Origin: a virus
Direction: 5' to 3' (one strand)
IMG/VR virus record: IMGVR_UViG_3300008113_004357
Location: 1-64,000 of that record
DNA: 64,000 bases
Shown here in pieces: positions 15,918 to 43,683 of the stretch. Position 1 is the first letter of the stretch; every line of letters starts with the position of its first letter. The notes under the pieces are model-generated. The model was not told the DNA's origin. It saw only the letters and a program-made list of their open reading frames with translations, and did no database searches. The position numbers were made by a program, and so were the translations under genes.

Positions 15918-16594
15918 AAGTTAAGTTAGTTTCTTATAGCCAACCTACAGAAGAATTTCGTCAACAAAACATAGACGATGCACTAGATCTAGTAGCTTAC
16001 TGCGCTCGTGTAAGTAACCCTGCTAATCAGTTCAATACAGAAACTAGCGAAAAGCTAATCAAGTATTTGATCAAGCATCAACATTGGAGTCCTCTCGAGA
16101 TGGTTAGTGCTTGTATAGAGATCACTACTACTAGAGATATTGCAAGACAAATCCTACGCCATCGTAGCTTTAGCTTTCAAGAGTTTAGTCAACGCTATGC
16201 TGATCCAACCGCAGAACTAGATGAAGCTTTTGTACTGCGTGAAGCACGATTCCAAGATACAAAGAATCGTCAAAATAGTGTAGAATTTGACATGAACGAC
16301 GAGCAACAAAAACTTCTTGCCTATGAATGGGAACGTGCTCAGAAGCGTGTACTATTTTCAGTTAAACAAGAGTATTCTTGGGCTATTAAAAACGGTATTG
16401 CCAAAGAACAAGCTCGTGCTGTTCTACCAGAAGGCCTTACTGTTAGTCGTATGTATATGAACGGTACTATTCGTAGTTGGATTCATTACATTGAACTTCG
16501 TAGTGCCAATGGAACACAAAAAGAGCATATGGATATTGCTCGTGCCTGTGGTCAAGTTATTGCAGAAGTATTTCCGCTGTCTAAATCATTGTAA
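15914..16594 (+). CDS. thyX: FAD-dependent thymidylate synthase
   Basis: 226 residues. Methylates dUMP to dTMP using methylenetetrahydrofolate, FAD and NADPH. The ThyX signature R-H-R-x7-S-x-R appears as RHRSFSFQEFSQRY (about 82-95). The C-terminal EQARAVLPEGLTVSRMYMNG and SWIHYIELRS match the substrate-binding region. Folate supply may connect to FolE upstream. The 3' end overlaps the 3' end of the convergent gene by 43 bases, so this marks the boundary between the rightward and leftward blocks. Confidence 0.95.
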   Translation: MKVKLVSYSQPTEEFRQQNIDDALDLVAYCARVSNPANQFNTETSEKLIKYLIKHQHWSPLEMVSACIEITTTRDIARQILRHRSFSFQEFSQRYADPTAELDEAFVLREARFQDTKNRQNSVEFDMNDEQQKLLAYEWERAQKRVLFSVKQEYSWAIKNGIAKEQARAVLPEGLTVSRMYMNGTIRSWIHYIELRSANGTQKEHMDIARACGQVIAEVFPLSKSL

Positions 16595-17484
16595 TGGAGA
16601 ACATTATCTGATTTCCTTGTTATATTGAAATCAAATGTTTTAAACCACTTACTTTGAATAGCTGTTAACGGTTCATCATCTATAGGGAGCTCATGCTTAA
16701 TGAGATTCCCTATTTTTTTGGCCAGTGCTAGTGGGTCTTCATTTTTAACTTTATCATAAAAGAAAGTATTGAGATAATCAAAGTCTCGAACATTAATAAA
16801 ATCCCAATCAGTAAAATGTGTCATGTAACAACCCTGACGAGCTCCTAGTATACTCCAAATGCCGTTTGATACATCTGCGCCTACCATTGACCAAATTCCT
16901 AATCGTTGGTAGTTACCTGGCCATACATCTTTTAATTGATTAACTCGTTGACCCTGTTCAAGTGACATCTTGACGCCTTCACGAAAGCCAGCTCTCCATG
17001 CTTGTAGTGGACTGCCGTTATTATGTATTTGACTAAAGGCTTTGTCTAAAGGCAAATATTCTAAATCCCAGCAAAAGTCTATTTGGCTTTTTACATTGTC
17101 ATTAGGAGCAGCTTCATGTGTTTGCATGTTAAGGACAACGTGCTTCGGCCAGCATTTAATGCCGCCATTGCCGTACATAAGTCCGTTGATAATATTATAA
17201 CTAGGCCAACTTACTACACAATTATCAAAATTAACATCTTCAGGTACTTCAATTACTTGATTAAGAAACTTTCCTGTAAGTACATTGTCACCGTCAATGG
17301 TGACAAATCTGTTTGTTTCAGATAAGTTTGCGGCAGCTTTATGAGCAGCATCACTGCCTTTAACACCGTGAACACGTTTTGCCCAAGGTATCTTTGAACA
17401 AAGATCTGCATAGTTACGATCAGCATCTGGCTCATCGTAACTGATATAGATTACATCATATTCACTTACTGTTATTTTTTTCAT
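16552..17484 (-). CDS. Glycosyltransferase-like protein of the VHGVKGSDAAH family
   Basis: 310 residues. DVIYISYDEPDADRNYADL at the N-terminus, then AKRVHGVKGSDAAHKAAA and RFVTIDGDNVLTG with a D-x-D-N motif, indicates a GT-A-like nucleotide-sugar binding fold. The second half contains a conserved MYGNGGIKCWPK and QAWRAGFREGVKMSLEQGQ. It is a close paralogue of the gene at 37501 and of the C-terminal domain of the giant repeat protein immediately upstream, with which it overlaps by 23 bases. Probably transfers a sugar; donor and acceptor are unknown. Last gene of the leftward run; its stop overlaps thyX tail to tail. Confidence 0.78.
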   Translation of the reverse strand: MKKITVSEYDVIYISYDEPDADRNYADLCSKIPWAKRVHGVKGSDAAHKAAANLSETNRFVTIDGDNVLTGKFLNQVIEVPEDVNFDNCVVSWPSYNIINGLMYGNGGIKCWPKHVVLNMQTHEAAPNDNVKSQIDFCWDLEYLPLDKAFSQIHNNGSPLQAWRAGFREGVKMSLEQGQRVNQLKDVWPGNYQRLGIWSMVGADVSNGIWSILGARQGCYMTHFTDWDFINVRDFDYLNTFFYDKVKNEDPLALAKKIGNLIKHELPIDDEPLTAIQSKWFKTFDFNITRKSDNVLHYNDLDSGNTSAIT

Positions 17485-22078: not shown

Positions 22079-22810
22079 CTACCATGTAATAAACTTATAT
22101 AGCTCTTTTGCGTAGAGCTCGTGAGGTTTTTCTCCGTGATGCCAATATTTTGCTAAAGAATTCTGATGACCTTCTCGCTGGTACTTGAGATAAAAAGAGT
22201 TATTTGAATTATCAAAATCCATATATCGAGAACCGTCTATTAACTTTAAGTAAAAATCAGTCCATCGATCTCGTTTGACAAAGTGCATGGTATTACACAT
22301 GACATACTGAATACCCATTGACTTAAAATAAGACTGTAGTTGATGTACAAGATTTAAACTTTGAATTTCTAAATATGACTGATTTGATGCCATGAACTTT
22401 TGATAAAATGGTATTAATCTTTTTTCCCAATCTGAATTTCCATTAAAGCCAGGATTTAATCTATAGAATACATTATTAGTATTTCCAAACCAAGAATTAG
22501 TTTCAGATATAATATATTTTGTTCCTAATTCTGACGGTATCTCCATACGCACACTTTCGGTCCATGCTACGCAGACAAATAGGTCCATACTTTCAGGATC
22601 ATATTCTCTATGCATCCATTCTAATATTGATCTAGCTATAGTAGGGTTAGCCGATCCTGGAGAAGAAATATTAATAGGTCTATACCCTAGCATCTCAGCT
22701 AATATGTTTCCAAATGATTTGCTTCTATTAAAATCAGAATCTAATTGCCCATCTATCTCTGATCCCGATGCGTGGCTGCATCCAGAGATTAACATTACTT
22801 TCTCTTTCAT
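22079..22810 (-). CDS. SGNH/GDSL-like hydrolase
   Basis: 243 residues. LISGCSHASGSE near the N-terminus (Ser12 in G-C-S-H) is the nucleophile block. NISSPGSANPTIARSILEW gives the Gly/Asn blocks, and KYWHHGEKPHELYAKEL near the C-terminus supplies the catalytic His. SGNH enzymes include O-acetylesterases and acyltransferases that act on polysaccharides, so it could trim or acylate the glycan made by neighbouring glycosyltransferases. There is no signal peptide, so action would be cytoplasmic unless released at lysis. Overlaps the upstream gene by four bases. Confidence 0.75.
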   Translation of the reverse strand: MKEKVMLISGCSHASGSEIDGQLDSDFNRSKSFGNILAEMLGYRPINISSPGSANPTIARSILEWMHREYDPESMDLFVCVAWTESVRMEIPSELGTKYIISETNSWFGNTNNVFYRLNPGFNGNSDWEKRLIPFYQKFMASNQSYLEIQSLNLVHQLQSYFKSMGIQYVMCNTMHFVKRDRWTDFYLKLIDGSRYMDFDNSNNSFYLKYQREGHQNSLAKYWHHGEKPHELYAKELYKFITW

Positions 22811-24063
22811 TTTACTAACCTTTGAACAGTTTTAAAAGTTGTTTTAGACAATAAACATTGATAATTATGATCTAATATTGATTGCATTTGATCGTACATG
22901 TCACGCAGTTCGTTAATAGATTTAGAATTTATATAATTTATAAGATTTAAAATTTTAATAGTTCGTACTTCATGATTAGATTCTTCATCATAACTTTCAT
23001 CCCAGAAATCGCTAAATGTTTTAAATCCCATCCTTTTAGCATATTCTAAAGTGTACGGTGGTGCTACTAATATAAATGGTTTTTTATATCTTATAGCTTG
23101 ATATAATTTTTCACTGTAATTTCCACAATGTTGCGCGAAACGTGTTTCATTAATTACATCACAAAAACTATCATTATAAAAATCTCCCAGTGGATTTAAT
23201 TTAAAATTATTAATAGCAGGGGTTTCATAATTATCATAGCTTTCTGTTATAGGATAATAAGATGGATTTTCATTGTTTATATCAACAGCATTAGTTGCTT
23301 TAATATCTAAACAAACAGGAGAATGATAATTTAAAATTTCAAATCCAGACATTAGTTGTTCGTATAATTCTTTATTTGTTTTTTTCCAATTGTGTATTGG
23401 AAAAAATAAATCATGTGCAAATGCTTGACCATTGCAATTAAAATACCAACTGTAGTTAGAAGAAACTGTTGATAAAAATGCTGTAATTAGATGACGGTGT
23501 TTTGTATATCTCCAATTTACACAAATAAACTTTTTAGTAAATTTGTTGTTAGGAAAACTTTCAAATAACGAGTAATTTTTTAAAAACAAATCATTTGTTA
23601 CTAGTTTCATTATTTTAGTGTAATGTGGATGATAGTAGGCTACCTTATAATCGCAAGTATTCACTATTACTCTTTTTAATCCATTACGTATAACATACTC
23701 TTTAATGCTGTCTAATTCGTCAGCTCTTATTTCGTTTAGATTTGTTTCAAAAGGAAACTCGCTGTAGAATCCTCTATTATGATGATAATTCTCCCTACGA
23801 GAACAAATAGGCTCATATAAGAAAAAATATAAACCCAATCTATTCATAGTTTCCACATCACTGGCACTATGATTAATATTTTTTAATCCTGTCAATTCCC
23901 CGTTACCCATATAGACAAAAACAGGAATATGAGGAGCTAGGCCGGAAGAATTTCTAACTTGGGTCATGAATACATTTGCATCTGTTTCAGGGCGATTTTT
24001 CATGCCAGGAATACTAAACCAATGTAACTGAGTCAATTCGTGATCTGGCGGATTAGAGCTCAT
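22807..24063 (-). CDS. Glycosyltransferase-like protein, SEK/KPF paralogue family (copy 1)
   Basis: 418 residues. The C-terminal part has NYSEKLYQAIRYKKPFILVA, GFKTFSDFWDESYDEESNHE and LDHNYQCLLSKTTF. The middle has FICVNWRYTKHRHLITAFLS. The same layout (x-N-x-R-x-x-H-R-x-x-L then S-E-K-x-F/L ... P-F-I-L ... G-x-K-T-F) occurs in the genes at 28401 and 31542. The E-x-x-x-x-x-S-E-K ... P region resembles the donor-binding end of GT-B/exostosin-like transferases. Sugar and acceptor unknown. Overlaps the oxygenase gene by 11 bases. Confidence 0.68.
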   Translation of the reverse strand: MSSNPPDHELTQLHWFSIPGMKNRPETDANVFMTQVRNSSGLAPHIPVFVYMGNGELTGLKNINHSASDVETMNRLGLYFFLYEPICSRRENYHHNRGFYSEFPFETNLNEIRADELDSIKEYVIRNGLKRVIVNTCDYKVAYYHPHYTKIMKLVTNDLFLKNYSLFESFPNNKFTKKFICVNWRYTKHRHLITAFLSTVSSNYSWYFNCNGQAFAHDLFFPIHNWKKTNKELYEQLMSGFEILNYHSPVCLDIKATNAVDINNENPSYYPITESYDNYETPAINNFKLNPLGDFYNDSFCDVINETRFAQHCGNYSEKLYQAIRYKKPFILVAPPYTLEYAKRMGFKTFSDFWDESYDEESNHEVRTIKILNLINYINSKSINELRDMYDQMQSILDHNYQCLLSKTTFKTVQRLVK

Positions 24064-24559
24064 TAAGTTCTCCTGTAATTTGAAGTGTGTACCTATCTGC
24101 TATTCCAATATTACTAGCTGCATGGGGAACATCGTACTGCCAGAAAAAATAATCTCCTGCTTTCCAATTTACATAACCAACATCTGCTATTTCTAAATAA
24201 TGTCCAGGTTTCCAATCTTCTAACATGATTAACACTCTACACACATTACTTGGAACTGCGTTAAATAATTTAGTGTAAGTTCTAAAATGATCTGTGTGCA
24301 TGGGCATTATTTCTAAAGTACTCATTTTATAAAAATTATAGGTTTGATTTTTTAGACCGAACATATTATTAAATTTTTGTACCCAGTCTGGTAAAAGATT
24401 TTTACTGTCGTACATTGATCCTGTAAAACTTTTTACATAGTCGTAACCCTTTTCTTTCCATTGAGAAACTTCTTGTTCAGTAACTGGTTGTTTAATATAT
24501 GAAAAAGTTCTATAACTGTGATCCCAAAAAGGATTAACATGACCGGTATAAAAATTCAT
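24053..24559 (-). CDS. 2-oxoglutarate/Fe(II)-dependent oxygenase-like protein
   Basis: 168 residues. H88-x-D90 (PMHTDHF), H146 (DVPHAASN) and R156 (ADRYTLQ) form the H-x-D...H...R pattern of the double-stranded beta-helix oxygenases, with strands RVLIMLEDWKPGHYLEI and AGDYFFW between. Would hydroxylate an amino acid, nucleoside or sugar-linked amine using 2-oxoglutarate and O2. Placed between an amidinotransferase and a glycosyltransferase-like gene with 4- and 11-base overlaps, so it probably acts in the same pathway. Distinguished from a simple cupin by the HxD spacing and the late Arg. Confidence 0.78.
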   Translation of the reverse strand: MNFYTGHVNPFWDHSYRTFSYIKQPVTEQEVSQWKEKGYDYVKSFTGSMYDSKNLLPDWVQKFNNMFGLKNQTYNFYKMSTLEIMPMHTDHFRTYTKLFNAVPSNVCRVLIMLEDWKPGHYLEIADVGYVNWKAGDYFFWQYDVPHAASNIGIADRYTLQITGELNEL

Positions 24560-25530: not shown

Positions 25531-26110
25531 TAAACACTCTCATTTTACTAATGTCAGGATAATCTTTATCACTCCAACATTTTGGTTTTAAATCTTTTAT
25601 TTGTTCAAATCGTTGTATCCCTAACTCTGCAGATTCAGGTGTCATATAATAATGATATCCTAACAGATCAACATCTTGTTCTTTCCACAGTACGTCGGGC
25701 AATCTACCATCATAGCTCATTTTTTTTAAAATATTAGCAGCTTCTTGGTTGTCAGTTAAAATCATTCCGCCGCGGCCCAAATTAAGATGCTTTCTAAATT
25801 GAAAACTCAAACACATAAATGTGCCAGGAATATAACTATCTTTTTTCCATAAGACTGCTGCATCAATGATATTTGTATTACCAATAAAATAATAGTCTTG
25901 CCATTGCGATTCAACAAACTCCCACGACAGTCCTAGTTTTTCAAATGTCATTGGTATAGATAGATATGTGTGTGCAGGGCAAGTTACTGACTTGGGAGTT
26001 GTGTAACGCAAGCAAAGTTCTACGGCATGAGTACAACTGTCTGTTGCAACTGCATACTCAGAACCAAAATAGTTTGCGATAATATTTTCAAAGTCAGTTA
26101 CTGGAGACAT
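25520..26110 (-). CDS. Miniature DegT/DnrJ/EryC1/StrS aminotransferase
   Basis: 196 residues. FENIIANYFGSEYAVATDSC and THAVELCLR match the PLP-fold entry of the DegT family, CPAHTYLSI the substrate loop, DAAVLW the PLP-pyridine Asp, and CLSFQFRKHLNLGRGGM (100-116) the internal PLP Lys107. Typical members have 360-400 residues; this one stops after YYMTPESAELGIQRFEQ and lacks most of the C-terminal domain, though that final helix is the normal family segment. It may be a minimal enzyme or need a partner. Would transfer an amino group to a keto sugar or cyclitol. Overlaps both neighbours by 11-17 bases. Confidence 0.8.
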   Translation of the reverse strand: MSPVTDFENIIANYFGSEYAVATDSCTHAVELCLRYTTPKSVTCPAHTYLSIPMTFEKLGLSWEFVESQWQDYYFIGNTNIIDAAVLWKKDSYIPGTFMCLSFQFRKHLNLGRGGMILTDNQEAANILKKMSYDGRLPDVLWKEQDVDLLGYHYYMTPESAELGIQRFEQIKDLKPKCWSDKDYPDISKMRVFNVK

Positions 26111-28349
26111 TTTCTTTTGTTTTCTTAATACTAGAAATTGGAATTACTACATTAGAATGCATTGCTTGTTTTTCAGGTATGGCATCCATGTTTGAAGCAT
26201 TTGAAACTTCTACTTCGTATTCTTTAAAATTACCCCAGTGGCCTTGTCCTCTATATCTGTATTGAAAGGTGAAATTTATAGTATTGTTTAATATTCTTTC
26301 TTCTTCTAAAAGATCATTAAAGTCATCACCACTTCTTCCGGCTTCAACATCCCATGTTGGTTTAGCTAACTTTCTTGCTCGCTTTGCAGTATTACTCATC
26401 ATTCGACTATAGTCTTGAGCATAGAAAGGACCTTTACGTCCCCTAGGAGGTGGCTCTCTTTCGTCATAGGGATTATCAATTTGATCAAATTTATATTTAA
26501 AGTCAGCAGCCCACTCACCGTCATCTGAAATTTTAAATTTAAATACTGCATTGTACATGCCTGGACCATACTGCGTTCCAAATTCTTTCAAATCAATTTC
26601 AGGATTAAATAAAATCTCAGCTTCATAGCCACCGCGAGTTTTCCATAGCATACGGAAGAATGGCCACATCTCATTTACTAGTGCGTCAGCAAAAGGATTA
26701 ATGCTAGGTTTAATTATATCGTAATCAAATTTTTCATATTCAATTTCTTTTACAAGATAAGGATTGTTTAACTTTATTGAATAGTGCTCTTTAGCTAGAT
26801 TAAATCTCACAGGATAACCAAACGGTACTTCTGTACAGCCTGTCATAAAATCTAGGAACATATGCATTATTTTAACACGAGACATGACATGTGTGCCGCC
26901 CTTGGTAAAATCATTAGTGATCCAATGTCCTTGATATTTTTGCCAGCTGATATTAAACTTGTGGGGGTTTTGTCCAACAATAGTTTCTGGACCAAGTCCA
27001 TATCCTACACCAGCACCTACGTTATTGATGTTCATGTTACGCATACGCCATAGTAACGTCATGCTGTCAGCAAAGTCTTGTAGTGTCTCTGTAGGGAATC
27101 CTACAATCCAATTAGTAGCTGCATAGATACCAACTTCTTTGCCATGCTTAAAGTTGTCTTCCATTTCTTTAATAGTAACACCTTTGGCCATGTCATCTAG
27201 AACATGTTGACTGCCGCTTTCGATTCCGTAGTTTAACATAATACAGCCGCCGGCCTTTAAATCTTTAAAGTACTCAAGGTCCATGCGACCATCACAGCGA
27301 GCATAGCCTGTCCAGTTAATTTTTAGACCTTTGGCTTCAACTGCTTTACAAAAGGCACGTAGTTCTTTTAGGTTACCGTTAACTAGGCTATCAATGAACC
27401 AGATAACATCTACACCTTTGTTATAGTATAACCACTCTATTTCAGAAATTAAATCTACTGATTGACGTTGACGATATTTCCAAAAGTGTGTTTCTTCACA
27501 GAATGTACACTTGGCTGTACAACCTCGACTAATCTCTGTGTTAACTCCGTTAGGCAAATCGTAGAGACTAAAGTCAATGCTTTCGTAATCAGGCATTGGA
27601 AGTCCGTTAATATTGACACGTTCATATTCGTCTTGTGTTAATACAACAGGTTCAGTATGTTCTACTCCGTTTTCTACATCTTCTAATAACTTTAATAGAT
27701 TAATTTCACCCTCACCTACTACAACATAATCATAATAAGGATGTACAGTAAACCAACTTTTGTGTGCGTTAGGTCCGCCAACTGCAATTTTAATATGCGG
27801 AGCACGGCGTTTTAATTCTTGGGCCATCCATTTAGTAGGTTCTTCACTGATGTAGTACATACTAAAACCGACAACCTGCGGATTCATTTCTATTATTTCT
27901 TCTATTGCCTGTTCAAGAATAGGTTGTAGAATAGGATGTATATCTTTCATATACGTTTCCCCTAACCAGTGCCAACTGGCTGCAGGGTCCCACAATCTAA
28001 AAGGAAGTTTATTATTAGGGATCCAATCTTCTTGATGAGCGCGATATGCTTTAACATTAAGATCCATAATATGAGTTTCATATCCTGCACTTTTAGCAAC
28101 ACCGCTTAATCTAGCAAGACTAAACGGAGGCATATAAGGACTCCATTCTGGACATAGTACTAAAACTAATTTGGTATTTCTAGTCTTGTAGTCTACGTAA
28201 ACAGGAGTAAGATTTTTTTGTACAGTTGCTTTAGCATAGGGAGCAATGGCCTTCATCATAGACATATGACGTGCATCAGCTAAATCTTCGGGCGGCTTTT
28301 CGGGCAGGACTACTTCTTTTTTAGCAAGTCCTTGTAGATTAAAATCCAA
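26094..28349 (-). CDS. B12-binding radical SAM enzyme
   Basis: 751 residues. A cobalamin-binding Rossmann-like domain spans about 60-225 (LVLVLCPEWSPYMPPFSLAR, VVGFSMYYISEEPTKW, IAVGGPNAHKSW, YVVVGEGE). The radical SAM domain follows with C277-x3-C281-x2-C284 (SRGCTAKCTFCEE) and GIESGSQHVL. A C-terminal region of about 230 residues (AVFKFKISDDGEWAADFKYK, NFTFQYRYRGQGHWGNF) is not recognised. Such enzymes methylate unactivated carbons or rearrange skeletons. The start codon is TTG with AGGAG seven bases upstream. First gene after a 51-base gap; overlaps the aminotransferase by 17 bases. Confidence 0.88.
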   Translation of the reverse strand: MDFNLQGLAKKEVVLPEKPPEDLADARHMSMMKAIAPYAKATVQKNLTPVYVDYKTRNTKLVLVLCPEWSPYMPPFSLARLSGVAKSAGYETHIMDLNVKAYRAHQEDWIPNNKLPFRLWDPAASWHWLGETYMKDIHPILQPILEQAIEEIIEMNPQVVGFSMYYISEEPTKWMAQELKRRAPHIKIAVGGPNAHKSWFTVHPYYDYVVVGEGEINLLKLLEDVENGVEHTEPVVLTQDEYERVNINGLPMPDYESIDFSLYDLPNGVNTEISRGCTAKCTFCEETHFWKYRQRQSVDLISEIEWLYYNKGVDVIWFIDSLVNGNLKELRAFCKAVEAKGLKINWTGYARCDGRMDLEYFKDLKAGGCIMLNYGIESGSQHVLDDMAKGVTIKEMEDNFKHGKEVGIYAATNWIVGFPTETLQDFADSMTLLWRMRNMNINNVGAGVGYGLGPETIVGQNPHKFNISWQKYQGHWITNDFTKGGTHVMSRVKIMHMFLDFMTGCTEVPFGYPVRFNLAKEHYSIKLNNPYLVKEIEYEKFDYDIIKPSINPFADALVNEMWPFFRMLWKTRGGYEAEILFNPEIDLKEFGTQYGPGMYNAVFKFKISDDGEWAADFKYKFDQIDNPYDEREPPPRGRKGPFYAQDYSRMMSNTAKRARKLAKPTWDVEAGRSGDDFNDLLEEERILNNTINFTFQYRYRGQGHWGNFKEYEVEVSNASNMDAIPEKQAMHSNVVIPISSIKKTKENVSSN

Positions 28350-28400
28350 GTTAATTCTCCTATCAAATATTTAACAGTTTTAATTTTAGCCGTTTTTTTT

Positions 28401-29531
28401 CTAAACATTTACTGTGTCTAAACGATAACACGTTTTTTCCATCAATACTTGATAATTATGATCAAGAATTTCTTTGACAGCTTTCTGCCATTCAATCCAT
28501 TGGCTATCGCTGAATTCGCACAACCTTAAAACTTCTTTCCAAATCATGTCCAGTCGTGCATGATCGTCAATTTCATTATCGTAACTTTCGTCTATTAAGG
28601 GATCAAATGTTTTGTATCCTAATTTTTTTAAATGCTGCAATGAAAAGGGTCTTGACGCTAAAATGAAAGGGTGTTTTAATGCAATTGGCCTAAATGTTTT
28701 TTCTGTTAAAAATATAGAATCCCTAGCATCTATATACGGAAAAAAGTCATTGTGCTCTTTGAAAAACAGAGTTTCAGTAACCAAACTAAAATAACTGTCA
28801 TTGTGATAGTGTATATCGTCAAGTCGTACATCAATTGGATTGTATCTATCATCAGGGACATTAAGGCGAAGCGGGAATATGTCTTGGTATCTCGTAAATA
28901 ATTTACGCATTCTTTTATATTTCTGCGAATTACCTATACGATTTATCACATCTATACCATATTCAAAAGACGAATAAGTTTTTTCTAAAAGATTACTGTC
29001 AAGTATTTTGTAAAAAAGAAGTACTCTGTGTTCCCTTAACTGTTTGTTAAGACAACAAAATAATTTAGATTTTTTTTGAATTAAGTATTCAATTGTTGGA
29101 TGATTAGTTTCACGATAGAAAACAGAAAGATTTTCTTTCATTACATTTTCAAAAACACTACTGCAACAAATCTCAAGTAATGGTTCTATATTTTGTTCTA
29201 AACAATAGTTTTGATATACTTCTTTTCCATTTTGTGCTGAGGTCAGATATATGTAAGAAACGCTGTAATCATTTATTTGTCTAATAATTCTATGAATTTT
29301 TCTTATATGATCAAAGTAAACTGCTTCATTAACATTGTCAAATAAAATTCTTTTATATCCAGCACTGATTGCCGATTTGATAGAATCTATTATTGGATCT
29401 GTTTCTATTTTAGGAAAGGGATAATTGAAATATGTTCCAGCATAAACATAGAAAGTCTTGCTGTCTATCTCGCCAATAACTTCTGTTAAAAATTTAATGC
29501 TTAAATCAATTTTACTTTGTTCTAAAATTAA
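28401..29531 (-). CDS. Glycosyltransferase-like protein, SEK/KPF family (copy 2), no standard start codon
   Basis: The frame is open from the A10 run that ends the upstream dehydrogenase. The first ATG in frame is at 29141, giving 246 residues, yet the 130 codons before it match the paralogue at 31542: DNVNEAVYFDHI against NNSHEAFHSVVDGI, and CLNKQLREHRVLL against NLNRRWRFHRPAL. From 29531 it is 376 residues, like the 379-residue paralogue. The C-terminus has FLTEKTFRPIALKHPFILAS and GYKTFDPLIDESYDNEID. No ATG, GTG or TTG precedes 29141, so it is made by -1 frameshift fusion, by ATT initiation (29528 or later), or the sequence has an indel. Sugar specificity unknown. Confidence 0.65.
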   Translation of the reverse strand, partial: LILEQSKIDLSIKFLTEVIGEIDSKTFYVYAGTYFNYPFPKIETDPIIDSIKSAISAGYKRILFDNVNEAVYFDHIRKIHRIIRQINDYSVSYIYLTSAQNGKEVYQNYCLEQNIEPLLEICCSSVFENVMKENLSVFYRETNHPTIEYLIQKKSKLFCCLNKQLREHRVLLFYKILDSNLLEKTYSSFEYGIDVINRIGNSQKYKRMRKLFTRYQDIFPLRLNVPDDRYNPIDVRLDDIHYHNDSYFSLVTETLFFKEHNDFFPYIDARDSIFLTEKTFRPIALKHPFILASRPFSLQHLKKLGYKTFDPLIDESYDNEIDDHARLDMIWKEVLRLCEFSDSQWIEWQKAVKEILDHNYQVLMEKTCYRLDTVNV

Positions 29532-30721
29532 TTTTTTTTTTGGCGAGAATTGCCGTAGTGTATTAATTCAAAATTGGCACCATCTACAGTTTGCAATTTG
29601 CGCCACGGGTCTATTACAATAGATCCATTAGGGAATTCTACATATTTTACCCATTCTTCCCAGTAACCAATGAGATATACTTCAGTCCACTCAGATTTTA
29701 AATCTAAATCGCCTGTGTTTTTATCATAATAATTTACATTGCCACCTAGCTGTTCAATGTAATGGCCTACTAATAAACTGGGGCTTCCGATAGTATAATG
29801 TACACCCGGTTTGTATGCTTTACCTACTATGGTAACATTTTTACCTTGAGAGATACATTTTTTAGCAATGCGTTCAGATTGTACTTCTCTAGCTGTCATA
29901 ATAGCATCGAATAAATCATACCCCAGGTCAAGCTTGTCAGCTAGATATCTTAATGCTATGTTATCTCTTGGATGGCATGCGCCGCCATCACCGAGTCCTG
30001 CTGTCATATATGCAGGCCCCATAATACGATAAGAACTTTTTGCCAATGCATTAGTGACAACATCAACATTGATATTTCCATTTGTTTCTGCAACATCTTG
30101 TATCATATTAACCAGTGCTAGTTTTGTACTGATAAAAGTATTGTAAAAGATTTTAATGCTTTCTGCTTCGTCCCAAGTCCCAACTTCATACCGTGGGTTA
30201 TTTTTCATAAGAGGGTTATAAAAATCAATTAACTCTTGTGCATCACCAGTTAAACTGCCGTCTTCTGTACCTATGATAACCATTTCAGGATTAATCATAT
30301 CATACTTAACTGTACCCATGGCAATAAGATACGGATTATAGATAAAACGAGCATTAGTTATTAAGGGCTCTAATTGAGATCTTACAGTACCTGGTAAAAC
30401 TGTACTGATTAAAACAACTAGTTGTTTTTTGTTAACATGTCTATTAACTTCTTGTAAAATATTCTTAACAATAGTGTAATCAAAATCTTTATTTGGTAAA
30501 TGACTTGTCGGTGTTTCGCCGCCGTACATAGGGTCATGTGGTGTAGGTGCCGCAATAAAAATAAAATTGCTGTCTTCTACTGCATCTTTTATTGAAGACA
30601 TCATAGGAAAAGCAGGCGATCTAGGCTCAACGTCATAGCCTACTACTTGGTAGTGTTCTGCCATTACTTCGGCGCAATCTTGCCCAAGTTTTCCAACACC
30701 AATCATAGCAACTTTAGTCAT
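29528..30721 (-). CDS. UDP-glucose/GDP-mannose 6-dehydrogenase, full length
   Basis: 397 residues with all three family domains. MIGVGKLGQDCAEVM (6-20) is the NAD-binding motif, VLISTVLPGTV and EAESIKIFYNTFISTK form the centre, and GLGDGGACHPRDN (242-254) carries the catalytic Cys249. VTIVGKAYKPGVHYTIGSPS, after about residue 295, is the C-terminal nucleotide-binding domain. Oxidises an NDP-hexose to NDP-uronate, giving an acidic sugar for the local glycosyltransferases. Start preceded by AGGAAT. The gene ends in RQKKN encoded by an A10 run; see the frameshift site. Confidence 0.88.
   Translation of the reverse strand: MTKVAMIGVGKLGQDCAEVMAEHYQVVGYDVEPRSPAFPMMSSIKDAVEDSNFIFIAAPTPHDPMYGGETPTSHLPNKDFDYTIVKNILQEVNRHVNKKQLVVLISTVLPGTVRSQLEPLITNARFIYNPYLIAMGTVKYDMINPEMVIIGTEDGSLTGDAQELIDFYNPLMKNNPRYEVGTWDEAESIKIFYNTFISTKLALVNMIQDVAETNGNINVDVVTNALAKSSYRIMGPAYMTAGLGDGGACHPRDNIALRYLADKLDLGYDLFDAIMTAREVQSERIAKKCISQGKNVTIVGKAYKPGVHYTIGSPSLLVGHYIEQLGGNVNYYDKNTGDLDLKSEWTEVYLIGYWEEWVKYVEFPNGSIVIDPWRKLQTVDGANFELIHYGNSRQKKN
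29532..29541 (-). other. A10 run: candidate -1 ribosomal frameshift site
   Basis: Ten consecutive A (minus strand) sit five bases before the end of the dehydrogenase gene. In its frame they read C-AA AAA AAA AA-T TAA, containing the canonical slippery heptamer A AAA AAA. A -1 slip leads into KLILEQSKIDLS, the downstream glycosyltransferase-like frame, which has no normal start codon. A homopolymer-length sequencing error would give the same picture. Confidence 0.5.
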
Positions 30722-30750: not shown

Positions 30751-31548
30751 TTAAAACCAATCTATTTTTATTTCTTTATTCATCACAACTGGAGGGTTAT
30801 TAGCGTCTAAATTAAACGTGTGATGAATATCATCAACAGTTGGACAAGCTTTTAAAAGTTTAGTAGATTGTATAGCGTACTTGTAGGTTTCTTGTGATAT
30901 GTCAAAACCCACTTTTTTTAAATATGCATAATATCTTGCCGGAGACGGATGGTAATCTTGAAATTTAATTCCCTGTTGCGGGTGATCATAAACGTGCCCA
31001 TGGTCCCAATGTCCTCTCATTTCTGTTTGAAATAAGTTAGGCAAACATATGCTAGTTACAGGTTTATATACATTCAATATTTTACCAATATCTTGTGTTT
31101 CTTCATTTTGATAATTCCAAGGAACACTAGTAAGAAAAATATAATCACATGGCAAACTATCAAGTAATCCTTTGGTCAAACTTACAACATTTAAATCTCT
31201 TAAAATATAGCCTTTTGTATCGCAGAATTTTTTAACAAAATTTTCAGGATAATATGCTTGAGTGAATATGTTTCCTGGTGTCTGCCAATGATCGTTTACG
31301 TATCTATCTTCTCTACAAAAAGTTGTCCACATTACCACAACTAGATCATCCTCTGTATAATTTAATTTAGTGTTACCTTCAGCTACTTTATACGAAATAA
31401 AAGGGTTGCCAGCTCCAGATTTTCCTAGGTTAATAAACTCTGTGTCTGGCATAGTATGTGCAAGAATATCTGCCCAGGTTGGCCAAATATATTTTGTAAA
31501 ACTACATCCAACTGTAATTAATCTTTTATATTTTTTTAAATTTAACAT
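30751..31548 (-). CDS. SGNH-type hydrolase/esterase-like protein
   Basis: 265 residues. RLITVGCSFTKYIWPTWADI puts Ser16 in the G-x-S nucleophile block; NLGKSGAGNPFI gives the Gly/Asn blocks; VVVMWTTFCREDR follows; and QDYHPSPARYYAYLK near residue 215 gives the D-x-x-H-P catalytic end. A second member of this superfamily lies at 22079. Likely an esterase or acyltransferase on a sugar or polysaccharide. No signal peptide is visible. Overlaps the upstream gene by seven bases. Confidence 0.75.
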   Translation of the reverse strand: MLNLKKYKRLITVGCSFTKYIWPTWADILAHTMPDTEFINLGKSGAGNPFISYKVAEGNTKLNYTEDDLVVVMWTTFCREDRYVNDHWQTPGNIFTQAYYPENFVKKFCDTKGYILRDLNVVSLTKGLLDSLPCDYIFLTSVPWNYQNEETQDIGKILNVYKPVTSICLPNLFQTEMRGHWDHGHVYDHPQQGIKFQDYHPSPARYYAYLKKVGFDISQETYKYAIQSTKLLKACPTVDDIHHTFNLDANNPPVVMNKEIKIDWF

Positions 31549-32681
31549 AATTTTGTTGTAAAGGTCGATTTTGAAAGCAAAGTATCAAAATTATATTTGC
31601 ATATAGATTTAGAAAAATCTAAAAACTCTGCTAGCTCAGTTGTATTTAAGTTAGATAAACGCTCAATTTCATCTACTATGGCTATCATACGTTTTACATC
31701 GTCTTCAATAAGATCGTATGCTTCATTAATATACGGATGAAAAGTTTTATAACCTATAGACCTAATTGCTTCTAGACTGTTAGGTCTACTTACAATTATA
31801 AAAGGATGGAAATTTGCAATTGGTTTAAAAAGTTTTTCGCTTAAAAATCTTCCCTTTTCTAGAAAATCATAATAATTTGTTTCGCTTACTACACTAAAAT
31901 AAGTTTCTTCATAAAATTTAGTAGTACTTTGCAATAAGGTAACATGGTTAATCTCCATGTCTGTCCTATCTACAAATAACTCTGGCAATGATAAAATTTT
32001 ATCTTTATTATTTTTTAAAAACTCTAATTCTGTATAATGATTTCTATGGATATCTAAAATGTCGTTCCAAACTTTATCCCAAGTTTTGTTATCGTCCGAT
32101 TTTGCTAAACTTACATATCCATAATCTAGCAAATTTCTAGCAGCCAAAAATGCTACTAACGCAGGTCGATGAAATCTCCATCTTCTGTTTAAATTTAAAA
32201 ACTTTTTAGAATAATTTTTTATATTAAGAGTATCCGGTAAAACATAACCCATACTAGTTACATCGCACTTTGTTGATAGTTCAAAAACTCTTGACCATTC
32301 GGATGTAATAGGTTTACAATTATATTTTTTAGATACTATACCAATTTCAACAGCTATATCCGCAGACTCGCTTAATAGTAATATTTGTTCTTCGGGAATT
32401 TTAAATTTAATAACAACAAATTTATAAATTCCATCAACTACAGAATGAAACGCTTCATGGCTGTTATTTAAAATTAACTTGATTCGTTTACGTCGAATTG
32501 AAATCAAAATATTAGACGGAACAACTTTGTTTAAATGCTCAAGTCCTTCACCTGTCATAAAGTCGACACAAAAATACTGTGCATCATTAAACTTTCTCAT
32601 TCGAGGAAGAACAGTTTCGTCCCGCATAGAGATTTCACTATTTCCGTCAATATAAGGAACTACGTTGTTTACTATAGACAT
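31542..32681 (-). CDS. Glycosyltransferase-like protein, SEK/KPF family (copy 3)
   Basis: 379 residues. FLNLNRRWRFHRPALVAFLA and RFLSEKLFKPIANFHPFIIV with SIGYKTFHPYINEAYD are the family landmarks shared with the genes at 22807 and 28401. ATG start directly after the stop of the SPASM-type radical SAM gene. The conserved Ser-Glu-Lys and Asn-Arg-His-Arg positions suggest a phosphate or nucleotide-sugar pocket, which is inference. This copy has an intact start and serves as the length reference for the copy at 28401. Confidence 0.7.
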   Translation of the reverse strand: MSIVNNVVPYIDGNSEISMRDETVLPRMRKFNDAQYFCVDFMTGEGLEHLNKVVPSNILISIRRKRIKLILNNSHEAFHSVVDGIYKFVVIKFKIPEEQILLLSESADIAVEIGIVSKKYNCKPITSEWSRVFELSTKCDVTSMGYVLPDTLNIKNYSKKFLNLNRRWRFHRPALVAFLAARNLLDYGYVSLAKSDDNKTWDKVWNDILDIHRNHYTELEFLKNNKDKILSLPELFVDRTDMEINHVTLLQSTTKFYEETYFSVVSETNYYDFLEKGRFLSEKLFKPIANFHPFIIVSRPNSLEAIRSIGYKTFHPYINEAYDLIEDDVKRMIAIVDEIERLSNLNTTELAEFLDFSKSICKYNFDTLLSKSTFTTKLC

Positions 32682-33647
32682 TTAAATCATTTCAAATTTA
32701 GGAATTATAATATCTGTTCCGCAATGGCAATGTTCTTTACCGCACATAATCTTTTTAGGACCAACTGCACTAATATCTTGCAATATATGACCAATTTTGT
32801 CGCCTTGGCCGCAACTGGCTAAACTTACATCACCTGACGGATTTATAAAGATTGAGTCTCCAACACTACATATCCAATCTTTAAAAAAGTTTTGGCCGTT
32901 AACAATAATCTCATTACTATTAGTCGGAGATTTTGTTCCGTCAGAATATCTATTATAACTTACTGCTTTACTTTCTTTGCGAGGTTTATTAATAGTAAAA
33001 TTCATTTCTACATTATGTTCATCAATAAACTTTTTCTTTTCAGGATCTTTGTATTCCCACGGTCCAGCGTTAACACTCATTTCATCAAACAACGGAGTCC
33101 ATTCAATAAAATAGTTAGGCATTACAGTTTTCAAATGCTCGCCATATTCTACAACTTCCCAAAATCTTTCTTCGTGCATTAACATTTTTGTACAAAGGTA
33201 ATTTACTTTATCGCAGAGAAAAATGTTGTTTTCTTTATATTTTTCTTTGTCAGAAAATTCTACATGAAAACTAGCTACTATGTCATCAAAGAGGTGATAA
33301 TGTTTTTCCCACCAGGCCAAAGGTCTACTGAGGTTAGTATTAACTGCTAGGGTGCAATTAGGCAACTGTTCTCTTAACCATTCGCAAATGGGAATAAAAT
33401 TTTTCCACGCAGTTGGTTCTCCGCCGCTAAAGAAAAACTTATAATGTTTGTACCCAACACTTTTATACCTATCAATAATAATTTTAAGATTTTTTAAATA
33501 GACATCTAAATTATCGTCATTGCGAAAATTTCCTCCCCAGTTGCCGGGATTACAATAACTACATTTAAAATTACAAAAATTATTAACTTGCCATGTAACC
33601 GCTAGATAAGGCTCAGGAGCAAATATAGATATTAATTTTTTGCCCAT
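32682..33647 (-). CDS. Radical SAM enzyme with SPASM-like C-terminus
   Basis: 321 residues. C25-x3-C29-x2-C32 (NNFCNFKCSYCNP) binds the 4Fe-4S cluster, FFFSGGEPTAWKNFI is the SAM GGEP motif, and LAVNTNLSRPL the next strand. The C-terminus has cysteines DWICSVGD, ASCGQG and MCGKEHCHCGTD, suggesting one auxiliary SPASM/twitch cluster. Such enzymes modify peptides, sugars or cyclitols. Gene order places it between a glycosyltransferase-like gene and three N-twitch radical SAM genes, overlapping the latter by 16 bases. Confidence 0.88.
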   Translation of the reverse strand: MGKKLISIFAPEPYLAVTWQVNNFCNFKCSYCNPGNWGGNFRNDDNLDVYLKNLKIIIDRYKSVGYKHYKFFFSGGEPTAWKNFIPICEWLREQLPNCTLAVNTNLSRPLAWWEKHYHLFDDIVASFHVEFSDKEKYKENNIFLCDKVNYLCTKMLMHEERFWEVVEYGEHLKTVMPNYFIEWTPLFDEMSVNAGPWEYKDPEKKKFIDEHNVEMNFTINKPRKESKAVSYNRYSDGTKSPTNSNEIIVNGQNFFKDWICSVGDSIFINPSGDVSLASCGQGDKIGHILQDISAVGPKKIMCGKEHCHCGTDIIIPKFEMI

Positions 33648-34891
33648 CTATAGACCTCTTTAAGTTCTGGAATAACATCTAAAATACTTTCGTTGCGAGC
33701 GGCGTCTAACTCGTCATTAAATTTAATAAACTCTTGTATACCACCTTTGTTAGGATCTCCGCTTTTTAAATTTTGACTTATCATTTTAAACCCGTTGCTA
33801 ATCTCAGGATTATACGAATACTTGTGAATGTATTCTCGATATAATCTACCTAACTTTTCTTTTGAGAATTCAGGGAGAATCATAATATTGGAATACCAAG
33901 GACTGGTAGCAAGATTAAATCTAGGCACAGTATTCTTGTCAATTAGTTCGTTGTCGATCAAGTAGTCAAAGAATTTAGGAAATTGAAATACGTTCCAAAT
34001 ACTAATAGTAGGAGTTATTTGGAACTGTGCGTGGGGTACTAGTTCTTTTAGTTCTCTTAAGTTTTTCTCTATCCTATCCCAATCAGTACCTTTACGAATT
34101 AATTCGCTATGTGGTCCCATGCCGTCTAGGCTAGCCCAAATAATTAAGTTAGGAAATTTTTTCCAATAATCAATTAAGTCTTTATCTTTAAACTTAAGGC
34201 TGCTAAAGTTTGTTGTATAACTTAACTCAATAGTTTCATTTATACCATTTTCAATCCAGTAGTCTAAACACTCATAATGTTCTGGAGTGATAATAATTTC
34301 GCCGCCTGCAAAATATACTTCAACTACATCTTTAAGGTACGGTTTTAATTTAGTCATTAACACTTGATCATCGTTGTTACTAACTACCATTTTAGTCATG
34401 TTAAAATGTTTGTTTAAAACTTCAACACCTTTTTGGTCAATAAATTCCTGTGCCCATTGACTAGAACAGCTTGGTCCGCAACTACGACATTTCATATTGC
34501 AGAGATTACTAAAACGAATGTCCATGTACTTTAACTTAAATTCGTTTAAACTTCCATCGTCATTAGTGTCCTCAACTGTGTCAACAAAATCAAGTCCTCT
34601 GCGTCTGTTATGACTTTGTCTCATAGTCCACGTGCCTAATTTTTCGAGATCGTAGCATCGTTGGCATGCTTCAACTGGTTCGTCATTGAGCATGTTTAAT
34701 CGCATTTTCTTATACTCTTCACTGTTCATCATTTCAAGTATAGATTCATTTGATTTGATTTCACCTACTGGTTTATTACTGTCAGCTACACAGCATGGCA
34801 ACACCCTGCGATCTGGCCAGGCATGAAAATGAATCCAAGGAAGGATACAAAAGTGTTTTCCATTTTCAACAAGCTCTGTTACGTTTTTCAT
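33632..34891 (-). CDS. N-twitch radical SAM enzyme (copy 1)
   Basis: 419 residues. The N-terminal auxiliary domain has HFCILPWIHFHAWPDRRVLP then CC (33-34) and C76-x2-C79. The radical SAM site is C131-x3-C135-x2-C138 (SNLCNMKCRSCGP), and YFAGGEIIITPEHYE is the SAM strand. The auxiliary cluster sits before, not after, the radical SAM core, an architecture known as N-terminal twitch. Its substrates are not established. LIIWASLDGMGPHSELIRKG follows. Three paralogues in tandem suggest successive reactions on related substrates. Two bases separate it from the next copy upstream. Confidence 0.85.
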   Translation of the reverse strand: MKNVTELVENGKHFCILPWIHFHAWPDRRVLPCCVADSNKPVGEIKSNESILEMMNSEEYKKMRLNMLNDEPVEACQRCYDLEKLGTWTMRQSHNRRRGLDFVDTVEDTNDDGSLNEFKLKYMDIRFSNLCNMKCRSCGPSCSSQWAQEFIDQKGVEVLNKHFNMTKMVVSNNDDQVLMTKLKPYLKDVVEVYFAGGEIIITPEHYECLDYWIENGINETIELSYTTNFSSLKFKDKDLIDYWKKFPNLIIWASLDGMGPHSELIRKGTDWDRIEKNLRELKELVPHAQFQITPTISIWNVFQFPKFFDYLIDNELIDKNTVPRFNLATSPWYSNIMILPEFSKEKLGRLYREYIHKYSYNPEISNGFKMISQNLKSGDPNKGGIQEFIKFNDELDAARNESILDVIPELKEVYRWAKN

Positions 34892-34893: not shown

Positions 34894-36132
34894 TTACTCC
34901 GTTAGATTCATAAGTCTATTTAATTCTGGGAAAGTTTTAATGAAACTTTCACCTCTAATTTTATCAGTTGACAAGACATGCATAAAAAATGTCTTTTTAT
35001 TTTCATCCCAAGTGTTGCTTTCATCTGCAAATTTTATTGCATCTGTTACAAGATTGTTTAACAGCACCCATTCAGGACCGTTAGAAGATATAAATTTTTC
35101 TGCATTTTCTTTTGCAGCTGCCTTTAAAATTTTTGGCATACTTTTAGCAGAATAATAACTAGGATGAACGGCAAGATATAAACTGTGATACCAGTCGTCC
35201 AATCTTACAATATTTTTTTCCTTAAGATAGTTATAAAAATCTCCAATAGTCAGATAATTGAAAATACTGAATACTGTGTTTATTTGAAAATGTACATAGT
35301 CTAATTGTCTAAAAGTAAGCAGGTTACTTTCAACTTTACCCCAATCTGTACCGTGACGTAACCACTCTGCTCGTTCGCCGTAATGGTCAATTGAACAGCT
35401 TAATTCAACACGTTTAAAATGTTTCCACAAGTCTAGTATGTCATGATTTTTATATTTAATATTGCTGGCATTAGTGTTATAACGTAAAGTTACATCAGTT
35501 CTACCCTTACGAATCATTTCTTCAAGGATAGTGTAGTGCTCATCTGTGATTAAAGGTTCGCCTCCAGCAAAGTAAGCAAGATCGATGTGTTCAATGTGTG
35601 TTAGTACTTCATTAAGCAAATCGCCTTTACCGTCATCGGCATGAATAACTATAGGATGATTAGGATCAAAATTTGCTTTTTGTTCGGCGGCCCATTGACT
35701 GCTAAATTCAGCACCACAGGTTCTACATTTAAAATTACAAATATTACTAAAACGTATGTCGTAATATTTCATTTTAAAATCTGGCATTGTGCCATCTACT
35801 TGTGTTTGTGGCACTAGTTCGTCAAAATCTTTTCCCCAATGTTCTTTGCTATAATTTCTAAAACTGTGAGGACCTGCTTCTTCATGCTTATAACAAAACG
35901 TACAAATTTCACTTTTAGTTTCGTTTAACATGTTAAGACGAATAGTTTTCATCTTGTCGTTATTAAACGCATCTTTTAATGTTGTTTGCTTTGTATTACC
36001 AAATGGAGTAGTATAGTTGTTACTACAGCAAGGGTATATGTCTCCTTTTGGTGTTACATTTAAATGCATCCATGGAAACATGCAAAATACTTTGCTTTCA
36101 TTTAATAAAAAATCTTTATCTATATTGTTCAT
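34894..36132 (-). CDS. N-twitch radical SAM enzyme (copy 2)
   Basis: 412 residues. FCMFPWMHLNVTPKGDIYP and C35-C36 with C77-x2-C80 form the N-terminal twitch cluster; C132-x3-C136-x2-C139 (SNICNFKCRTCG) is the radical SAM site; YFAGGEPLITDEHYTIL has an intact GGEP. VELSCSIDHYGERAEWLRHG follows. The closest paralogue appears to be copy 1. Copies 2 and 3 keep GGEP, whereas copy 1 has GGEI. Overlaps copy 3 by 17 bases. Confidence 0.86.
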   Translation of the reverse strand: MNNIDKDFLLNESKVFCMFPWMHLNVTPKGDIYPCCSNNYTTPFGNTKQTTLKDAFNNDKMKTIRLNMLNETKSEICTFCYKHEEAGPHSFRNYSKEHWGKDFDELVPQTQVDGTMPDFKMKYYDIRFSNICNFKCRTCGAEFSSQWAAEQKANFDPNHPIVIHADDGKGDLLNEVLTHIEHIDLAYFAGGEPLITDEHYTILEEMIRKGRTDVTLRYNTNASNIKYKNHDILDLWKHFKRVELSCSIDHYGERAEWLRHGTDWGKVESNLLTFRQLDYVHFQINTVFSIFNYLTIGDFYNYLKEKNIVRLDDWYHSLYLAVHPSYYSAKSMPKILKAAAKENAEKFISSNGPEWVLLNNLVTDAIKFADESNTWDENKKTFFMHVLSTDKIRGESFIKTFPELNRLMNLTE

Positions 36133-37504
36133 TGGCTATTTCGCAAAGTTTGTAAAAGCTTTCCATTTCTGGAAATGCTTGTAAAAAGTTAGTATCTCGT
36201 CTTTTATCCATGGCGCTAAACCAATTGAAAAAATCTTTTCGACCTTCAACTAATTTTTCCATAGTATAATTTGTTGACTCCATATAATCGACTACACGTT
36301 TAAATTTTTCATATTCAACGCTGGTAAACTTATCGCTGGCATTATCGTCAACATTCTCTTCCATAAATTTAAGATGCTCGTGCATATAGGGCATAAACTC
36401 TTGTTTTGGTAGTATGTTCATATCATATTGAATAGGATCTCTGAGATAGGGTGTGTCAAATCTTACGCGATGTTCTTTACGATCCTCGTACCATCCATAT
36501 TGTTTACGCCATTCAAGAATTTTTTCTAATAAAGATTTAAATGTTGTTACACTTAAAATATTAAATGTAATCATAAAAGTTATCGGACTAGTAGTATTTG
36601 TAAGATATGTGTGAAAATTTTGTTCCCATAACGAAAGATCTAAACCTGTACGAATGTACTCAGCACGAGGACCCCATGTGTCCATACTAGTAAACAATTT
36701 AAAATTTTTAATTTTATCGTTAACTTTTAAATTTTCAACTTCGGTAGATAATCGATCTACTAAACTGCTCTTGACACCAAGATTACTGTTAACATTAAGT
36801 TCAAGCCAGGGCATTGGTTCTTTGTTAATTTTATCTAATAATCTCCACGTGCTTACGTGCATCAATGGCTCTCCGCCAGTAACACGCATAATATTCAATG
36901 TCTTACGTAACTGAGGCCACCAACGCCAAAACGCATCTACATATGGATTATCTTCTTCTCGACTATACAGCTTCATCCAGTCAATGTCGCAACGATGATT
37001 TTTAACTGTGGTCACTGGACCGTGTTCTTTAATCTCATTAAAGAATCTTGAACTGTATTTGGGATGGCAGTATCCGCATTTGAAATTACATTCATTGCCA
37101 AAATTGATTTCAATATACTCAGGATTAATGTTTTGGTCCCAAGAGCCTTTGGCTGTTTGCTCGTAGCGTTCTTCCGTAAAAATACTGGCATTGCGAATAT
37201 GTCTATCGCTAATATAATCGGGACCCATTGCTTCGATGTTCCAGCAGTATTGACAACCTTCGGGCTTTTTGCCTTCTAGCATCATTTTACGTTCTTGCTT
37301 CTTATGTTCAGTGTTGTGCAACGCACTGGGATTGTCAAATACTTCAATTAAAGGAATCTTATGAGGAGCAGGATGATAACAACTATGTGTTTCTCCTGTT
37401 TGTAGATACATGGTCACGTGATGCCATTTGGCTAGACAAAATGTAGAGCTTACTTCATTCTCTACTTTAATCTTGATTGTTTTGATCTTTTCTTGTTCAT
37501 TCAT
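36116..37504 (-). CDS. N-twitch radical SAM enzyme (copy 3)
   Basis: 462 residues, the longest copy. FCLAKWHHVTMYLQTGETHS with C42 and C84-x2-C87 is the twitch part; C139-x3-C143-x2-C146 (GNECNFKCGYCHPK) is the radical SAM site; RVTGGEPLMHVSTWRLL is the SAM motif. LFTSMDTWGPRAEYIRTG matches the TSxDxxGxRxEYxRxG region of the family. More divergent than copies 1 and 2. Overlaps the GT-like gene upstream by four bases. Confidence 0.87.
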   Translation of the reverse strand: MNEQEKIKTIKIKVENEVSSTFCLAKWHHVTMYLQTGETHSCYHPAPHKIPLIEVFDNPSALHNTEHKKQERKMMLEGKKPEGCQYCWNIEAMGPDYISDRHIRNASIFTEERYEQTAKGSWDQNINPEYIEINFGNECNFKCGYCHPKYSSRFFNEIKEHGPVTTVKNHRCDIDWMKLYSREEDNPYVDAFWRWWPQLRKTLNIMRVTGGEPLMHVSTWRLLDKINKEPMPWLELNVNSNLGVKSSLVDRLSTEVENLKVNDKIKNFKLFTSMDTWGPRAEYIRTGLDLSLWEQNFHTYLTNTTSPITFMITFNILSVTTFKSLLEKILEWRKQYGWYEDRKEHRVRFDTPYLRDPIQYDMNILPKQEFMPYMHEHLKFMEENVDDNASDKFTSVEYEKFKRVVDYMESTNYTMEKLVEGRKDFFNWFSAMDKRRDTNFLQAFPEMESFYKLCEIANEQYR

Positions 37505-43661: not shown

Positions 43662-43683
43662 CTTTTAACCTCTTAATCTTATG

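Follow-up and report, generated by a model that had tools for sequence, protein, structure and literature searches.

Phage clusters that combine genes for radical S-adenosylmethionine (SAM) enzymes with an amidinotransferase gene have been known since 2010, their function unassigned, and these clusters, as well as the host-recognition islands of some phages (PMC7029224), are known in outline. In the Campylobacter phages CP220 and CPt10 such clusters, each with five radical SAM genes and an amidinotransferase, are interchangeable (PMC2853527), and the host-recognition islands of pelagimyophages contain glycosyltransferases and radical SAM cassettes (PMC7029224). Here we analyze a 64,000-nucleotide stretch of virus DNA, positions 1 to 64,000 of the IMG/VR record IMGVR_UViG_3300008113_004357 (the window). 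One of its genes encodes a protein, hereafter the B12-type enzyme, that is well supported as a cobalamin-type radical SAM enzyme within a conserved phage module, which contains four further radical SAM enzymes (Table 1). What is new here is the B12-type member with its C-terminal domain, as well as the set of five enzymes and how widely it occurs among contigs of uncultured aquatic phages. Searches of the literature for an earlier description of any phage family of B12 radical SAM enzymes returned general mentions only.

The clusters of the Campylobacter phages CP220, CPt10 and F379 resemble this locus in having five radical SAM genes and one amidinotransferase, and F379 also has a sugar-nucleotide transferase and tail genes nearby. 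However, their amidinotransferase is ~25% identical, a homologue of the B12-type enzyme was not found in them, and the phages infect unrelated hosts. Synechococcus phage S-SCSM2R encodes a half-size DegT-family aminotransferase (mini-DegT) and an amidinotransferase that are 58% and 61% identical to those of the window, together with a 2-oxoglutarate (2OG) oxygenase, annotated glycosyltransferases and one radical SAM gene, but the B12-type enzyme and the four-enzyme set were undetected in its sugar-cluster region. The pelagimyophage cluster shares with our locus a large variable island beside tail genes, glycosyltransferases, UDP-glucose 6-dehydrogenase and radical SAM cassettes, although the B12 type is unmentioned and the freshwater group described there is devoid of radical SAM genes (PMC7029224). 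The streptomycin system, with StrB1 (1BWD) and an StsC/DegT-type aminotransferase, combines the same amidinotransferase family with an adjoining DegT-family aminotransferase; the phage aminotransferase is half the size.

Domains and relatives of the B12-type enzyme

The gene of the B12-type enzyme has relatives in IMG/VR and a ratio of nonsynonymous to synonymous substitutions (dN/dS) of ~0.04 over the whole protein when compared with its two closest relatives, and thus it is not a chance open reading frame. Purifying selection on the family is strong, and since the C-terminal part also has a low dN/dS (0.06-0.08), it acts on the entire protein. We take the TTG codon proposed by the first-pass annotation as the genuine start, because an AGGAG sequence lies 7 nt upstream and the relatives with the same N-terminal residues have TTG (28), ATG (14) or GTG (4) at the same codon; 12 further relatives show codons such as ATT at this position instead. 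Promoter and terminator scans of the region 26000-30000 gave nothing better than shuffled sequences. In record G001, that of locus L101, a close relative of the gene (42372-44500) is split into two overlapping frames, due to a frameshift or to an assembly error.

Pfam matches the B12-binding family (PF02310) to residues 144-217 (E 8.5e-12) and the Radical_SAM family to residues 272-432 (E 6.7e-17), both above their curated cut-offs. This agrees with the initial proposal that a radical SAM core is fused to a domain of the cobalamin type, and the cysteine triad that accompanied that proposal (C277, C281 and C284; CX3CX2C) is invariant in 46/46 relatives. An AlphaFold model made with 63 aligned sequences (mean predicted local distance difference test, pLDDT, 88.5; predicted template modelling score, pTM, 0.87) consists of a five-stranded Rossmann domain and a radical SAM barrel, besides the C-terminal domain treated below. 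When the model was compared with the PDB by Foldseek, TsrM (6WTE) and OxsB (5UL4) were the top matches (E 4e-15 to 2e-14), followed by AprD4 and MiaB. VIA-align ranked AprD4 with paromamine at the top (Z 18.3, root-mean-square deviation 3.1, 386 residues aligned), followed by OxsB (17.2, 3.3, 392), MgmA (16.7, 4.0, 364), MiaB (16.3, 3.8, 354) and TsrM (16.2, 3.5, 408). Adjacent values are near ties, and therefore the fold alone cannot choose between cobalamin and non-cobalamin relatives.

Unlike the fold, the profiles, as a comparison of sequences, do favour the cobalamin relatives TokK and CysS over AprD4, MiaB and RimO. A widened family profile, whose scores were raised by the cellular B12 enzymes and paralogues that it had taken in, matched TokK (E 2.3e-51) and CysS (E 4.6e-36) across the cobalamin domain and the core, and aligned with AprD4, MiaB and RimO within the radical core only. 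With the strict-family profile TokK was still matched in the cobalamin domain (E 2e-5). In the comparison with the widened profile, the cobalamin domain of OxsB was aligned as well as those of TokK and CysS. The nearest NCBIfam relatives are the C-methyltransferases of ribosomally synthesized and post-translationally modified peptides (RiPPs), the P-methyltransferase PhpK and BchE, all of them below cut-off (e.g., ApyD, 104 bits vs 750; rSAM_ocin_1, 100 vs 282); no NCBIfam B12 radical SAM equivalog reached its cut-off, and such an assignment was discarded.

The closest group is that of the class-1 cobalamin-dependent enzymes (TokK, CysS, OxsB and TsrM). TokK and CysS (PDB 7KDX and 9N1B) have the same order of a Rossmann cobalamin domain and a core, align through both and lack a DxHxxG motif, but they differ in the C-terminal domain and the gene context, and their identity in structural alignments is 14-17%. 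TsrM and OxsB, the best Foldseek matches, also have other C-terminal parts, and no tryptophan or nucleotide pathway lies near the phage gene. In class-1 enzymes the loop that follows strand 3 places a residue under the cobalt (PMC13331322). In the phage family (46 sequences) Y165 of this loop is invariant and its neighbours Y166 and I167 nearly invariant. The counterpart of Y165 in OxsB is Asn186, and TokK differs in having Trp76 at the place of Ile167, close to the invariant Tyr165; from these two aligned residues the Y165/Y166/I167 loop is predicted to lie under the cobalt. Altogether, fold and sequence make cobalamin binding by this protein likely.

Two identities that would dispense with cobalamin were considered. 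One is a Rossmann-fold radical SAM enzyme that catalyzes the dehydration, dehydrogenation or epimerization of a sugar as AprD4 does, and the lead of paromamine-bound AprD4 in VIA-align speaks for it, even if OxsB is close behind. Nevertheless, we consider it unlikely, as the sequence of AprD4 aligns in the core only, in contrast to those of TokK and CysS, which also align in the cobalamin domain, and the NCBIfam model for AprD4 (NF033070) gives 34 bits against a cut-off of 500. The other is a tRNA or ribosome methylthiotransferase of the MiaB/RimO type, the housekeeping identity that the first-pass annotation had set against its own reading. These enzymes share the fold of the two N-terminal domains (VIA-align Z ~16), but the NCBIfam MiaB models scored 32-44 bits vs cut-offs of 251-357 (TIGR00089, 44 vs 251; TIGR01574, 32 vs 355), the sequence match is restricted to the radical core, the Pfam scan reported no TRAM domain, and the N-terminal cysteine triplet is missing (C66 is present in 44/46 sequences and a Cys at position 176 in 27/46). 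Membership of MiaB/RimO can thus be practically dismissed.

The C-terminal domain contains many invariant residues and, among the collected loci, is confined to the B12-type protein. As the first-pass annotation had anticipated, this region was not recognized: for residues 500-751 there was no Pfam family above chance and no credible PDB sequence match, Foldseek against the PDB gave no convincing fold for the domain (best E 0.66), and the best VIA-align result was Z 4.8 (root-mean-square deviation 4.5, 103 residues aligned). The model of this domain is moderate (pLDDT 79.6, pTM 0.69) and VIA-align only re-ranks the Foldseek candidates; hence the absent fold match is no proof of a new fold. The distant marine relative L086 has no detectable match to this domain, which may hold the substrate site.

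Occurrence in phages and the five-enzyme island

Relatives of the gene are encoded by 187 pattern-matched IMG/VR stretches, the best 80 of them with 65-94% identity, and by 216 when a second IMG/VR scan used alignment. In contrast, 50,697 phage records yielded distant, partial matches only, among them gp36 of Streptomyces phage SF3. This gene is annotated as a B12-binding radical SAM protein and shows that a cultured phage can carry a cobalamin-type gene, but it shares 24% identity over 40% of the query, has 499 residues without the C-terminal domain and lies in another gene context. The gene type is therefore rare in isolates and common in uncultured aquatic T4-like phages, and the rarity claimed by the first-pass annotation holds for the former and fails for the latter, with its ~200 IMG/VR relatives. 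The phage origin itself is supported by genes for a MoxR-type ATPase, a VWA protein, ThyX and tail fibres in the window, and by Gp23-type (T4-like) capsid genes on 13/25 related contigs, which reach 364 kb. Our impression is that the relatives' contigs come mostly from fresh water.

A genome scan for a cellular home of the gene did not find a close bacterial homologue. Its best match, L086, called a gammaproteobacterial metagenome-assembled genome (MAG), is 32% identical in the best segment and is itself probably phage, because its contig carries phage tail genes. Contigs C3 and C12 of the gammaproteobacterial MAG MED685 (G025; L263-L265 and L269-L270) contain tail genes and nine N_Twi_rSAM genes over the cut-off, and for this reason they are probably phage contigs binned with a bacterium. 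A Halobacteriovoraceae MAG encodes a 475-aa B12-type radical SAM gene together with a second radical SAM gene (L087:3472-5715), directly 3' of genes resembling dihydrolipoamide dehydrogenase and 2-oxoacid dehydrogenase E2. In addition, many of the contigs with the B12-type gene encode a second, shorter B12-binding radical SAM paralogue of ~640 aa (L042:2063-3997, L043:4093-6021, L263:13173-15062 and others).

Positions 40965 to 16552 of the minus strand form the island that contains the gene; the genes of this island mostly overlap, and ThyX and tail genes bound it. The other four radical SAM enzymes are rSAM321, TwA, TwB and TwC; the last three exceed the curated cut-off of N_Twi_rSAM (NF033640, 170 bits), and CX3CX2C is kept by all five enzymes, in each of the 61 sequences of every family alignment. 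Among 80 module loci anchored on rSAM321, TwA and TwB were found nearby in 80/80 and TwC in 76/80. A close relative of the B12-type enzyme is present on 22/24 large contigs with the four-enzyme set, a sample chosen by size and by carrying members of that set, which partly overlaps the first search and contains related, not independent, phages.

Table 1. Features of the window analyzed in this work.
Feature	Position	Strand	Evidence
DxD protein of the f298 family, GT-A-like by weak evidence	16552..17484	-	
Conserved 243-aa protein, <=8 kb from the B12-type gene in 57/80 loci	22079..22810	-	
Conserved protein without recognized family	22807..24063	-	Pfam, neighbourhood comparison
Putative 2OG-Fe(II) dioxygenase	24053..24559	-	Weak PhyH; 41% over 111 aa to annotated phage 2OG oxygenase
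StrB1-like (inosamine-phosphate) amidinotransferase, 324 aa	24556..25530	-	PDB 1BWD, E 2.2e-61, residues 4-321
Half-size DegT/DnrJ/EryC1/StrS aminotransferase (mini-DegT), 196 aa	25520..26110	-	PF01041, 65.8 bits
Cobalamin-type radical SAM protein (B12-type enzyme), 751 aa, TTG start	26094..28349	-	Open reading frame, Pfam, AlphaFold model, structure and profile comparison
Uncharacterized C-terminal alpha/beta domain, ~residues 500-720	26190..26852	-	Model, alignments, domain searches
Radical SAM core, ~residues 267-450	27000..27551	-	Pfam, model, conserved cysteines
C277/C281/C284 codons	27519-27521, 27507-27509, 27498-27500	-	Radical SAM core
Cobalamin-binding-type Rossmann domain, ~residues 57-240; GG(P/S)N and GEGE conserved	27630..28181	-	Pfam, model, profile alignment
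Shine-Dalgarno AGGAG	28357..28361	-	Sequence and relatives' start codons
Conserved protein without recognized family	28401..29141	-	Pfam, neighbourhood comparison
UDP-glucose 6-dehydrogenase-like protein	29528..30721	-	Pfam, NCBIfam, homology
Possible SGNH/GDSL hydrolase (weak)	30751..31548	-	
Conserved protein without recognized family	31542..32681	-	
rSAM321, radical SAM enzyme with extra invariant cysteines	32682..33647	-	Family alignment
TwA, N-terminal twitch/SPASM radical SAM enzyme	33632..34891	-	NF033640, 369 bits
TwB, N-terminal twitch/SPASM radical SAM enzyme	34894..36132	-	NF033640, 373 bits
TwC, N-terminal twitch radical SAM enzyme	36116..37504	-	NF033640, 313 bits
DxD protein (f298), adjoining TwC	37501..38397	-	Weak Glycos_transf_2 match, E 0.033

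Several neighbours point to sugar modification. The amidinotransferase belongs, by full-length homology and catalytic motifs, to the inosamine-phosphate/arginine amidinotransferase family, with D161 and H208 invariant in 41 sequences and a GFHC motif at 311-314; StrB1 is its best relative among solved structures. The mini-DegT gene overlaps the B12-type gene by 17 bp, and its pyridoxal phosphate (PLP) lysine K107 and D83 are invariant in 41 sequences. It falls short of a full-length DegT fold (~360 residues with the C-terminal domain), as the profile match ends at 240/360. Without this usual domain it is yet conserved in those 41 sequences and in a cultured cyanophage, and it may be a minimal PLP enzyme. 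The amidinotransferase occurs on 12/24 contigs, and mini-DegT on all 12 of these vs 1/12 of the others (one-sided p 4.8e-6, uncorrected for relatedness). In streptomycin synthesis StrB1 works after an StsC-type aminotransferase, and by analogy the introduction of an amine and then of a guanidino group is a reasonable guess for the phage pair. The corresponding place in a marine relative is occupied by an island rich in radical SAM genes, in which epimerase/decarboxylase, carbamoyltransferase, FkbM and sugar-nucleotide-transferase families are also represented.

A glycosyltransferase identity was also tried for the three conserved proteins at 22807-24063, 28401-29141 and 31542-32681 but had no family support, and we leave them unassigned. 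The gene at 17462-22072 (minus strand) encodes 1,536 aa with ~ten repeats of ~120 residues. The repeats look like degenerate versions of the beginning of the protein's own C-terminal DxD domain, which resembles the two DxD proteins of Table 1. A second, shorter UDP-glucose-dehydrogenase-like gene (271 aa) is located at 4651-5466 (plus strand), and an uninterrupted open frame next to the tail genes (4,423 codons; 50700-63971, minus strand) probably encodes a giant structural protein. The plus-strand genes for a GTP cyclohydrolase (5519-6355) and a QueE-like radical SAM protein (8028-8900) suggest a possible deazaguanine DNA modification.

Proposed role of the module

The B12-type enzyme shares its island with four radical enzymes and streptomycin-like sugar-modifying genes, suggesting that during infection the virus produces a sugar with unusual decorations (or a modified protein). 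Our preferred reading, to which we give about even odds (probability ~0.5), is that a class-1 B12 radical enzyme and its module build a phage-specified, partly guanidinylated glycan via C-methylation or related B12 radical chemistry. The radical SAM cluster would cleave SAM to give a 5'-deoxyadenosyl radical, which would abstract a hydrogen atom of the substrate. A methylcobalamin bound base-off, with no histidine as its ligand, in the space between Rossmann domain and barrel would then most likely give its methyl group to a substrate carbon; methyl transfer is the commonest chemistry among the relatives of the enzyme. Working together with the other four radical SAM enzymes of the module, it would most likely yield a building block or chain of the glycan, made with the UDP-glucose dehydrogenase; about half of the phages would also use the aminotransferase and the StrB1-like amidinotransferase to add a guanidino group. 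Such a glycan would either alter the envelope of the host, and thereby keep out rival phages, or serve as a decoration of the virion. Our computations establish the gene and its conservation, the order of its domains, its exclusion from MiaB, the module and the island; cobalamin binding, methyl transfer, a sugar substrate and this biological role we infer from the domains and from the context, which favours a sugar.

Some observations weigh against this reading. To our knowledge AprD4 and MiaB have the same fold and do not use cobalamin, and because of this the fold alone leaves B12 dependence unsettled. The DxHxxG motif is absent from 46/46 sequences of the family, which counts against cobalamin binding, although this absence is expected for class-1 enzymes and is shared with other class-1 members. 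None of the three neighbour families guessed as glycosyltransferases has a recognized family. The aminotransferase/amidinotransferase pair is not strictly tied to the B12-type enzyme, since about half of the contigs, some of them fragments, carry it. Finally, many peptide-modifying enzymes have the twitch/SPASM architecture, and for this reason the substrate may be a protein.

This last point, together with the fact that the best named relatives are RiPP enzymes (ApyD and rSAM_ocin_1 had the best NCBIfam scores), makes a protein substrate the main rival. As in RiPP maturation or in modifications of the Mmp10/MgmA type, the B12-type enzyme would C-methylate a phage tail or host protein that the twitch/SPASM enzymes would cross-link or epimerize. 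We regard this as possible: the island adjoins tail genes and the protein methylase MgmA is among the structural neighbours, but the other recognizable enzymes of the island act on sugars or guanidino groups, and no precursor peptide or RiPP recognition domain was recognized in the cluster, where no dedicated search for them was made. A modification of nucleic acid or nucleotides, tied to the QueE-like and GTP cyclohydrolase genes of the window, is very unlikely, as these genes lie on the opposite strand, ~17-23 kb away in a separate gene block, and are unmatched in the neighbourhoods of all 80 relatives.

Compared with the first-pass annotation, our analysis keeps the domains, the cysteine triad, the start, the phage origin and the unrecognized C-terminus, corrects the rarity, and adds the context of five enzymes and a sugar island that had been missed. 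A bolder version of the glycan reading, doubtful at present, is that giant T4-like phages, abundant in fresh water, have a biosynthetic pathway of their own at work during infection, with five radical SAM enzymes (one of them B12-dependent) and the streptomycin-like aminotransferase/amidinotransferase pair, leading to a C-methylated, guanidinylated aminoglycoside-like glycan or small molecule that would remodel the host surface or act against competitors. If the glycan reading is true, the infection chemistry of these phages would depend on host vitamin B12, and phages would build specialized sugars by radical chemistry. To the radical SAM/amidinotransferase clusters already described, the B12-type family adds a probably cobalamin-dependent member and many natural relatives, along with the repeated association of an aminotransferase with an amidinotransferase, which points to a testable class of products.

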